Of a DNA stretch of 32,387 bases, positions 7,037 to 21,402 are shown piece by piece; positions within the stretch are counted from its first letter, which is position 1; every line of letters starts with the position of its first letter. The stretch comes from Fidelibacterota bacterium. Its GTDB lineage: Bacteria; Fidelibacterota; Marinisomatia; Marinisomatales; UBA1611. Below the pieces are notes generated by a model. The model did no database searches and was not told where the DNA came from. It worked only from the letters and a program-made list of their open reading frames with translations. Location: contig JAPYRR010000014.1 of the NCBI GenBank assembly GCA_029936885.1, forward strand, positions 1-32,387, in the 5' to 3' direction. The position numbers and the translations under genes are program-made.

Positions 7037-9229
7037 ATGAAATACAAAATTCTTTTTTTACTACTGATTGGGATATCTTTACATTTTCCTGGGTGCGAAA
7101 AACCTCCGGAAGACTCAGCGGTGGAAACGATTGAATTTGAAAATACGTTGGGCACATCCTTATCTGGTGATCAAGGATCCATTGATGACTATTTTTATAA
7201 CTTCGGTGAATCTCCGGATATTCAAGCAGAATTCTTTCGATATAATCCCAATTTGATGAAAAATTATGACTCCTATAGTGCCTACTATGGTCTATTTGGA
7301 GAAGATCCACCCACCATGGATTATAGAACTTTCCCCCAACACTTGGTTGCCATGACACCTGCAGATGAAGCTGAGTTTACCGAAAGACATTATATTGATT
7401 CCTTATCTGTGCAGGATTCTATCGTCTTCGATTCTGTAGAAATCAACTCTTCGAAATTCAAAAACCTTGAAGCATTAGAATGGAATTTGGAAGCTGAACC
7501 CTCACTCCAGAGATATAAACTGGTTAATTCAGACTGGGTTTCTGCAGATACCCTTCTTTTTTTTTCCGATACATTTAATGTAAATGCATATTGGGCTGTC
7601 ATTGATACACCCTTTATTGATGAAGGTCTCATGTTTGTGGATTCATCAGAATGGAATGATACAAATTATGTCTTTTTAGCAGATGATCGGATTCGGTTTC
7701 TAACCACTTTTGAATTCACAAAGAAACAATTAAGCTCAGATTCGCTTGTTTTTAGAATCAATACAGATTGTAATGATAATGGTCAATGGGATGGTGCAGA
7801 ATCGCCCATCGAAGATTATAATGGTGACGGTGTATATGAATTATTATATGAATATGATGACCAAAATAATAATGGTGTCTATGATGCTGGCGATGCTATC
7901 ATTCAAGATTATAACGGAGATGGCACTATTTCTGTCGCATATGAATTTGTCGATGCAGGTAATAATGTATGGGATCCAGAGGAACCTTATTATGATGCGG
8001 ATGATAATGGCCAATATGATTTGAATGATCCGTATCAAGATCGGAATTGTAATGAAAAATGGGATGGGGCAGAAGAGTATGCAGACGCTGATGGAAGCGG
8101 GTCCTACACAGAGGGTGAAGAATTTACAGATAGAGGGAATGATATTTTTGACAGTGATGAAGAATTCACATTGAATTATGTGAGTGGAGATACGATCAAA
8201 AGTCTATATATAATTGGTGAAAAACCAGATAACCTGATTGTTGATTGGATTGATTCTGATAATCCGGAAGTCATGCTTGAAGTTGGATTAGGGGATGATA
8301 TCACAGACCGGTGGGGTACCGCTTATACTGATTTAATTGAAGAAGTTGACTTTACAGACCTAAAACAACAATATGTAGATGATATCGATTCTTTGGTTAC
8401 TTTGTATACTCGGGAAAAAGTAGGACATATTTCAGGATCAAATCTTTCTCCTGATGATTATCATATCACAAAATCAGAATGGACACGCACGAGTGGTGGT
8501 GAAATAGAAAGATTTTATAATTATCATATTTTTCACGAGCCAAAACATTTAAATCAAGTTGTATATCCAGCCTATTTTCTTCCGGTTGGGTTTTATTTCA
8601 ATCCAAATGATATCCAGGATGGTTTTTGGCATAAATCACAATTAGAAAGTGAAGTTCTATATTTTACGTCTGATGGATTACTTAGAGATGGAGAGCGGGT
8701 CGATACAGCTTATTATGATACAACAGCCATTGCTGTTTATTTTATTGAAAAATCTTTTACCGTTGAATCATCCTCAGTTACTGTTCCGGCTGGATATAGA
8801 TCAAGTGATAGTGAATCAGCCGTAGATACAACTTTTGCAGATTGTTTTAAAGTCACCAATAAAACAACCATGACTATGGTGGGAAGTGGTGTTGATTATG
8901 GACAAAAAACTGAATCTTGGCTCGCTAAGGGTTCAGGGCTTGTTAAAAGCGAAATTCATATTAGATGGACAGAGCATCCCTATGACCCGGATAATACATC
9001 GAATGGTCCACCCGATGAAAATAATGAAGCTTGGGTCGGGCTAAATCGTATTGAATTAAAATCTCTTGAAATGACCGATAATGGGAATGTTTTTAGGATA
9101 TTAACACAACCCGTTCAAATAATTGAACTAAAAGATATTGGGAATAATGCAGAATTTAATTTTGATCCATTTCGTGTTAGTACCCAAACAGGTATTCAAA
9201 CCATTGACCTTCGGGAGATGAGTGAATGA
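7037..9229 (+). CDS. Probable outer-membrane lipoprotein with acidic Ca-loop-like (EF-hand/dockerin-like) repeats
   Basis: N-terminus MKYKILFLLLIGISLHFPGC resembles a lipoprotein signal with Cys. Repeats DCNDNGQWDGAE..., DYNGDGVYE, DQNNNGVYDAGD, DADDNGQYDLND, DADGSGSYTEGEEF. Confidence 0.65.
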   Translation: MKYKILFLLLIGISLHFPGCEKPPEDSAVETIEFENTLGTSLSGDQGSIDDYFYNFGESPDIQAEFFRYNPNLMKNYDSYSAYYGLFGEDPPTMDYRTFPQHLVAMTPADEAEFTERHYIDSLSVQDSIVFDSVEINSSKFKNLEALEWNLEAEPSLQRYKLVNSDWVSADTLLFFSDTFNVNAYWAVIDTPFIDEGLMFVDSSEWNDTNYVFLADDRIRFLTTFEFTKKQLSSDSLVFRINTDCNDNGQWDGAESPIEDYNGDGVYELLYEYDDQNNNGVYDAGDAIIQDYNGDGTISVAYEFVDAGNNVWDPEEPYYDADDNGQYDLNDPYQDRNCNEKWDGAEEYADADGSGSYTEGEEFTDRGNDIFDSDEEFTLNYVSGDTIKSLYIIGEKPDNLIVDWIDSDNPEVMLEVGLGDDITDRWGTAYTDLIEEVDFTDLKQQYVDDIDSLVTLYTREKVGHISGSNLSPDDYHITKSEWTRTSGGEIERFYNYHIFHEPKHLNQVVYPAYFLPVGFYFNPNDIQDGFWHKSQLESEVLYFTSDGLLRDGERVDTAYYDTTAIAVYFIEKSFTVESSSVTVPAGYRSSDSESAVDTTFADCFKVTNKTTMTMVGSGVDYGQKTESWLAKGSGLVKSEIHIRWTEHPYDPDNTSNGPPDENNEAWVGLNRIELKSLEMTDNGNVFRILTQPVQIIELKDIGNNAEFNFDPFRVSTQTGIQTIDLREMSE
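7766..8170 (+). repeat. Block of tandem acidic D-x-[ND]-x-[ND]-G-x-[YW]-[DET]-x-[GA]-[ED] protein repeats
   Basis: At least seven degenerate copies in the translation of the 7037 ORF, from DCNDNGQWDGAE to DRGNDIFDSDEEF. Confidence 0.75.
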
Positions 9230-20382: not shown

Positions 20383-21402
20383 GATATTTCTACCTTCTCC
20401 TGATGATACCTGGCCTGGTATTAGGTCAGTATCGTGATATTCCTGATATTGTAACGAAAGTTGCTACATCTGCTGGTGGGTTCTTAAAACTAGAGACATC
20501 TACCCGGGCCATCGGTATGGGTGGGTCTCAAGTTGCTTCCGGTCGTGGCGTATCGGGTATTCCTTATAATCCAGCCAGTATCGCATTTATAGAAAAGAGT
20601 GAGGTTTACTTTTCTCAAGTGAATTACTTGGCAGGTATCACCCATGGAGTCCTGACCTATGGTACCCGAATAACACCCTCTGATTATATCGGATTTCACT
20701 TATTTTATTTAGATAGTGGTCCCATGGCAGTAACAACAGAACTTTTCCCAAATGGAACGGGAGAAAACTTCAGAGTTTTCTCAATGGCCATGCGCACAAC
20801 TTATGCAAGACGCTTGACAGATCGGTTAAAAGTGGGTGGATCTTTAAATTATATCCGAGATGCCATAGCAGAGACGAAGATGCAAACAGTCTCATTTGAT
20901 ATTGGTTCCAACTTTGATACAGGGATCTATGGAATGATTTTAGGGATGAGTATCACAAACTTTGGTCCTGAAGTAGAATATACAGGAGAGGACCTAACGG
21001 TTCCAGTTGCAGACACGATTGATGTGGATGGCAGTCTTCAACGTATAACAGATAAATTTCCTTTACCCTTAGTTTTTAGACTCGGCATAGAGAATGAACT
21101 GATGGGACCTAATAGTACATTTATTAAAAATGAGATCCATCGATTAATCTTTAGTATTGATGGCATTAAGCCCAGTGACTACACAGTTTATGGCAGTATG
21201 GGGATGGAGTATGCTTGGCAACGTTTGGCATTTGTTCGGGCAGGCACTCATTTCGGTCATGATACAGCCGGGTTCAGTCTGGGTGCTGGTATAAATCTTC
21301 GCTTAGGCAAGATGGCATTGAAAGTAGATTATGCCTTTGTGGATTACGGCATACTCACGAATACAAATCAACTCGCTATTGGACTGGATTTTTAAAGATG
21401 AA
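20359..21402 (+). repeat. Direct repeat copy 2 (~1,044 bp)
   Basis: Appears identical to 15846-16889 when read through in full. Confidence 0.92.
20379..21395 (+). CDS. PorV/PorQ-like outer-membrane beta-barrel protein, copy 2 (identical 338 aa protein)
   Basis: Translation identical to the 15866-16882 product. ATGA overlap with the preceding PKD-like gene. Confidence 0.78.
   Translation: MRYFYLLLMIPGLVLGQYRDIPDIVTKVATSAGGFLKLETSTRAIGMGGSQVASGRGVSGIPYNPASIAFIEKSEVYFSQVNYLAGITHGVLTYGTRITPSDYIGFHLFYLDSGPMAVTTELFPNGTGENFRVFSMAMRTTYARRLTDRLKVGGSLNYIRDAIAETKMQTVSFDIGSNFDTGIYGMILGMSITNFGPEVEYTGEDLTVPVADTIDVDGSLQRITDKFPLPLVFRLGIENELMGPNSTFIKNEIHRLIFSIDGIKPSDYTVYGSMGMEYAWQRLAFVRAGTHFGHDTAGFSLGAGINLRLGKMALKVDYAFVDYGILTNTNQLAIGLDF

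Follow-up and report, generated by a model that had tools for sequence, protein, structure and literature searches.

Why should a bacterial operon carry the same outer-membrane barrel gene twice, letter for letter, behind two different large proteins? The question is raised by a stretch of 32,387 nucleotides, hereafter the window, comprising positions 1 to 32,387 of contig JAPYRR010000014.1 (C39 in our numbering) in assembly GCA_029936885.1 of a Fidelibacterota bacterium, a bin of 1.71 Mb and 87% completeness whose relatives carry the label Candidatus Neomarinimicrobiota. The initial annotation of the window had described a lipoprotein, a TonB receptor and two cassettes, each made up of a giant cargo protein and a PorV-like barrel, and had missed that the two PorV-like genes do not differ at any of their 1017 bp.

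Organisation and conservation of the locus

Six genes on the + strand fill positions 7037-21395, and all six ORFs were found where the initial annotation had placed them. The junctions between them measure -4, +2, -4, +2 and -4 nt, which matches the ATGA overlaps reported at 9226, 15866 and 20379 and the 2-nt gaps reported at 12670 and 16883. This spacing suggests that the six genes are co-transcribed; scans of the locus for promoters and terminators returned about as many sites as expected by chance. On the 5′ side of the operon lie genes for trigger factor, ClpP, ClpX and, on the opposite strand, an M6 protease, and on the 3′ side genes for three large proteins with ordinary type A tails of the type IX secretion system (T9SS), one of them a subtilase.

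The first gene of the operon (7037..9229, + strand, an ORF) encodes a 730-aa lipoprotein whose lipobox cysteine, Cys20, is invariant in 17 orthologues. Its earlier designation as a Ca-repeat lipoprotein holds, in that four D/N-rich repeats of the Ca-binding D-x-[DN]-x-[DN]-G type lie in mid-protein against 0.03 expected in shuffles; three motifs of the same type occur in the TonB receptor. Profile searches of Pfam, NCBIfam and the PDB assigned the lipoprotein to no family. The receptor gene (9226..12669, + strand, 1147 aa) was recognised by profile search as encoding a TonB-dependent receptor with CarboxypepD_reg, Plug and barrel regions, the first giving a match and Plug falling slightly under its cut-off. 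Its relatedness to SusC is confined to the N-terminus, and the protein fails the SusC/RagA test (TIGR04056, 49.7 bits vs a cut-off of 368). The arrangement had been likened to SusC-type loci with no evident SusD, and there is indeed no SusD_RagB match genome-wide, in a search in which a Bacteroides control did match.

The order trigger factor-ClpP-ClpX-M6 protease (opposite strand)-lipoprotein-receptor-cargo A-PorV-like barrel, with or without a following cargo B-barrel pair, recurs on about 20 contigs of other genomes, and a search with the receptor recovered 22 Neomarinimicrobiota-type loci with the same gene order. Whole-genome searches found barrel orthologues in 17 of the 33 genomes of the family, 29 of the 130 of the order and 48 of the 246 of the phylum. 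The run from the lipoprotein through both cargo-barrel pairs is present in the families that we designate f1, f6, f12 and f13, with parts of it in f3, f4 and f14. Linkage of the six genes is thereby kept across the order, as the neighbourhood search found, which favours the earlier view of one conserved, tightly packed locus over its stated alternative, that homologues would be unlinked in relatives. Three more triads of TonB receptor, CTD cargo (∼1120 aa) and PorV-like barrel occur in the same genome, two on contig C53 and one on C124. The C53 triads are divergent and stand back to back (L092 18237-20000 and 9863-17996; L093; G000:C53).

Two different cargoes with PorZ/PorU-like CTDs

Cargo A (12672..15869, + strand, 1065 aa) has a signal peptide-like start, a lineage-specific body, an Fn3-like module and a PorZ/PorU-type CTD (15534..15866, + strand), and cargo B (16885..20382, + strand, 1165 aa) is composed of PKD domains, an Fn3-like module, a middle region of its own and a CTD. 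They are different proteins, having in common the Fn3-like module at 34% identity and the CTD at 45%, and they end in IGKFAVIR and MGKFAVIR, respectively. Outside f1 the N-terminal PKD part of cargo B is mostly absent. A cargo-B-like ORF of ∼1563 aa in one relative (L075/L086, G013:C130) matches parts of cargo B three times, perhaps reflecting amplified domains. A PDB profile search with cargo A gave no match, and the AlphaFold models of cargo A (9 sequences) and of the lipoprotein (17 sequences), each with a mean pLDDT of 32, were unusable.

PorZ and PorU are the nearest models of the cargo CTDs: nine of ten CTD members match both, and the top two PDB matches of the cargo CTD are PorZ (5m11, E 0.0024) and PorU (6za2, E 0.013). 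The matches of the cargo A CTD to PorZ and PorU are individually weak (E 8e-5 to 2e-4) and far under the whole-protein cut-offs. Models of the type A CTD (TIGR04183/PF18962) had no match in full-length cargo A or cargo B and gave weak matches in eight of ten CTD relatives, with a best E of 5e-4. In PorU and PorZ the CTD is not removed (PMC11285876), PorU being bound to PorV and PorZ to PorQ (PMC5562754).

The suggestion that PorV-like barrels have the CTDs of cargoes as partners agrees with gene position, since PorV-family barrels adjoin CTD-bearing cargoes here and many CTD cargo genes of relatives are directly followed by a PorV-family gene. Several cargo-A paralogues in relatives (L125, L134, L146 and similar) nevertheless have no adjoining barrel gene, and one relative (G171) encodes cargoes A and B separately, both with a CTD, together with a single barrel gene; one-to-one pairing of cargo and barrel is therefore no rule. 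Two of the orphan paralogues precede glyoxalase-like and adenylate-cyclase-like genes. In G178, G180 and G181 the cargoes are fused into one protein of 1439-1535 aa, in which the body of cargo A and almost the whole of cargo B are arranged around a single shared module; it has one CTD and is accompanied by one barrel gene. The fusion indicates that cargoes A and B act together, and, judging by the counts of cargo and barrel genes, both can be served by a single type of barrel.

Two identical PorV/PorQ-family barrel genes

The barrel gene downstream of cargo A (copy 1, 15866..16882, + strand, 338 aa) and that downstream of cargo B (copy 2, 20379..21395, + strand, identical in DNA) were aptly called PorV-like: their product matches NCBIfam PorV_fam (NF033709) at 168.8 bits against a cut-off of 90, over residues 31-338 of 338, and PorV is the sole match of the barrel profile in the PDB (E 3e-22). 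The product remains under the cut-offs of both equivalogs, PorV NF033710 (62.3 vs 250 bits) and PorQ NF033711 (85.6 vs 220 bits), and is therefore a paralogue, neither PorV nor PorQ itself. The PorP/SprF model was absent from the profile results for the barrels, and a barrel search with PF13568 gave no match. The genome encodes a SprA translocon (TIGR04189, 224.6 bits vs a cut-off of 200, with SprA_N matching too) and C25-type peptidases; a search for GldM/PorM had no match in the genome, but its control matched nowhere either. Near SprA, on contig G000:C123 (L096 2712-5308 and 7074-9494), a PorV-like gene overlaps that of a 556-aa protein with a PorZ-like CTD, probably the PorZ-PorQ-like pair of this organism.

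The identity of the two barrel genes extends slightly beyond them, as an exact direct repeat of 1044 bp (copy 1 at 15846..16889 and copy 2 at 20359..21402, both + strand) that starts 20 nt before the barrel ATG and ends 7 nt past the stop codon, and that is the sole exact repeat of at least 25 bp within the window. The initial annotation had each PorV-like protein serving its neighbouring cargo, an idea that fails as a private pairing: both copies encode the same protein, so that private cargo-barrel specificity is rejected in f1, and relatives with one barrel gene, whether the cargoes are separate (G171) or fused (G178, G180, G181), also count against it.

Concerted evolution of the barrel copies

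We compared seven f1 genomes, each from another genus and two of them single-cell genomes, in which a single contig carries both copies. The two copies of any one genome share 99.5-100% identity and differ at 0-1 of 147-165 four-fold sites (n=7); between these genomes, copy 1 has a median nucleotide identity of 70% and differs at about 0.65 of four-fold sites. Copies in f12 are 99.9% identical in G117 and 97.2% in G119, a 10-contig genome, those in f6 (G039) 75.8%, and those in f13 51% and 50% (G121 and G123). In the barrel tree, copies from the same genome group together in f1, f12 and f6, whereas in f13 it is copies at the same position that do so, with support of 98-100 throughout, and a grouping by position forced on all copies was rejected (dlnL 5510, AU p 7e-4). 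Since the f13 copies are diverged and grouped by position, the pair is old in the order, and on this evidence gene conversion has kept the copies alike in f1 and f12 and has stopped in f13. A published survey (PMC6053082) recognised concerted evolution where paralogues are closer within than between species, at synonymous sites too, and are syntenic in at least five species; this is the pattern in the seven genera of f1 and in two genomes of f12.

The identical tract in f1 begins 20-35 nt before the end of the cargo gene, so as to include the codons for GKFAVIR, and ends at the barrel stop codon. Its border is sharp in the concerted genomes, the cargo DNA directly upstream being 53-61% identical and the barrel gene 97-100%. 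In another order, G183 (f19) has copies that are 100% identical within an exact 1263-bp repeat, which includes a 150-nt spacer and reaches 87 nt into the CTD, equivalent to its last 28 residues; because its relatives G180 and G181 have one copy, this pair may have arisen by a duplication of its own. Co-divergence of CTD and barrel was considered and found unsupported among the few genomes that bear on it, as the CTDs are equally alike with identical or diverged barrels: CTD divergence between cargoes A and B is 0.43-0.53 throughout, with no rise where the barrels diverged. Homogenisation may also reach unlinked barrel copies: in one relative (L123, G008:C86) the barrel gene behind another cargo-A paralogue shares an exact stretch of 258 bp with its counterpart in the main locus.

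Proposed function and comparison with known systems

The explanation that we favour, at a probability of about 0.6, is that the locus encodes a T9SS-exported surface assembly by a TonB receptor, with its cargoes held by one PorV/PorQ-type anchor whose gene copies are kept identical by conversion. Judging from sequence, the CTDs would send cargoes A and B out through the type IX (SprA) translocon, and the cargoes would then stay permanently surface-bound on the PorV/PorQ-type barrel, as PorZ does on PorQ and PorU on PorV. Each cargo gene would be followed by its own barrel-gene copy because both cargoes use the same barrel, an arrangement that may keep anchor and cargo in step. Recurrent gene conversion would keep the copies identical and would also cover the last codons of the cargo CTD, which are predicted to face the shared anchor; it may be favoured since an anchor altered by mutation would be a poor fit for either cargo. 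The anchored cargoes, the lipoprotein and the TonB receptor would form one complex, probably for ligand binding or uptake. More tentatively, and with rather less confidence than we place in the explanation as a whole, we propose that T9SS-delivered cargoes replace SusD beside the TonB receptor and that selection for a common anchor sustains the family-long concerted evolution, including that of the export-signal end.

Among known systems, those with type B CTDs and PorP/SprF-like shuttles have a CTD cargo gene followed by its own barrel gene (PMC12618676, PMC9143113). As in those systems, the gene of a FadL-type outer-membrane barrel, there exporting and anchoring the cargo, directly follows the cargo gene, and several pairs per genome as well as orphan cargoes occur; in contrast to them, the barrel here is of the PorV/PorQ family, the CTD is PorZ/PorU-like (a fold family like that of type A), two cargoes come with one identical barrel, and a TonB receptor and a lipoprotein belong to the operon. 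The nearest CTD type and the PorV_fam barrel are shared with the PorU-PorV and PorZ-PorQ pairs of the Porphyromonas gingivalis attachment complex (PMC5562754, PMC11285876), by analogy with which the cargo CTD would be retained and barrel-bound. The cargoes here are, however, large PKD/Fn3 proteins without sortase or PorZ domains, and the operonic pairing and duplicated barrel also set the locus apart. SusC/SusD operons likewise have a lipoprotein gene beside that of a SusC-like TonB receptor whose N-terminal domain is of the carboxypeptidase-regulatory kind, but the present operon and genome have no SusD family member, T9SS-type cargoes and PorV-like barrels being found instead. In their evolution the barrel copies resemble tuf, amo, hao, psbA and fla, whose paralogues are near-identical at synonymous sites within a genome and diverged between species (PMC6053082), and like the gene pairs of that study they are syntenic in more than five species; they differ in lying within one operon and in a tract that extends into the 3′ end of the partner gene lying upstream.

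The locus had been put forward as undescribed, and in the literature searched, a scope beyond which most subscription papers fall, we found no description of it, no PorV-family barrel with a PorZ/PorU-type CTD cargo behind a TonB receptor, and no concerted evolution of such genes. An abundance of proteins with T9SS tails in SAR406 genomes was noted earlier (PMC5596340). The survey cited above found 26 concertedly evolving genes in 69 orders, and no gene for secretion or for an outer-membrane barrel is among them (PMC6053082). Few protein genes evolve in concert across many bacterial genera, and a membrane-anchor gene is added to them here; if our reading is true, it would give long-lasting concerted evolution its first example among secretion and outer-membrane genes. 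The setting also suggests a cause, namely that two different cargoes need one identical anchor, and the existence of species whose copies are identical, differ slightly or have diverged fully provides a natural test of cargo recognition by T9SS shuttles. More broadly, the recurrent triads show TonB receptors coupled to T9SS-type cargoes and PorV-like barrels in a major marine phylum that has no detectable SusD.

Alternative explanations

The alternative that fares best is that the locus serves foremost in nutrient uptake, as a SusCD analogue with T9SS-anchored proteins in place of SusD and with the identity of the barrels incidental. A TonB receptor stands at the head of the operon and is present in the three other triads of the genome, the genome is without a SusD match, and the receptor N-terminus resembles SusC; against this, profile searches of the operon found no enzyme, binding domain or regulator of a known ligand class, and contact between receptor and cargo is putative. 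We regard this as a serious possibility that falls short of even odds, and it is compatible with the shared-anchor explanation rather than exclusive of it.

It is unlikely, in our estimation, that the identical genes exist as a recombination platform through which the cargo B cassette is deleted, amplified or swapped to vary the surface. Two genomes, G001 (96% complete; L061, G001:C17) and G008 (L062, G008:C22), have a cargo A-barrel-g13 layout, with cargo B nowhere in the assembly, which is the exact product expected from loop-out between identical genes; the fusion of the cargoes resembles the outcome of recombination at their common Fn3 module, and the extra barrel copy of G008 behind another cargo-A paralogue, with its 258-bp exact match, would fit as well. 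However, Ns occur in the contigs of G001 and G008, either of which may be a collapsed loop, and cargo B is kept in most species at ∼60% identity, so that its loss is not frequent over long time scales.

Independent, recent tandem duplications of the barrel in each lineage, with no conversion, would also yield identical copies in the same operon, and G183 could be such a case, given its single-copy relatives G180 and G181 and a repeat that takes in the spacer and 87 nt of the CTD. Within the order, however, the second copy is always flanked by an orthologous cargo B on one side and by the same gene on the downstream side, at least eight events at one junction would be called for, and the f13 positions are old, each forming a cluster with support of 100; we consider this explanation improbable.

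Least probable of all is an assembly artefact in which two diverged copies were collapsed to one consensus and written twice, as might be feared where most genomes are short-read metagenome bins, one-gene repeats are a pattern that assemblers mishandle, and the G001 and G008 contigs have Ns and lack cargo B. The same identity is seen in two single-cell genomes (L014, L023) and in bins of different projects; diverged copies were assembled apart in G039, G121 and G123, and in G119 at 97.2%; both copies were resolved at their ends in several genomes, as differences between them in the last codons and stop codons show; and among loci found through the TonB receptor, and hence unselected for the barrel, 11 of 20 right-hand contig ends fall inside a barrel gene or no more than 75 nt from one, against an expected 19% (p 4e-4), which means that the assembler met a true near-exact repeat.

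Flanking genes and sequence records

A test for a viral origin gave a negative result. The contig edge truncates a protein whose end, with a dockerin-like repeat and a type A-like tail, is encoded at the start of the window (1-282). The subtilase gene of the window (26772-30050) has a counterpart in G017 with two or three more partial paralogues behind it (L066 1-5845). In one single-cell genome (L055, G002:C16) the M6 protease gene, conserved elsewhere, has shrunk to a 74-codon remnant. A record titled Lentimicrobiaceae (L019, PANC01000001.1) carries a Neomarinimicrobiota locus, with a receptor of 73% identity, and is probably mislabelled or misbinned.
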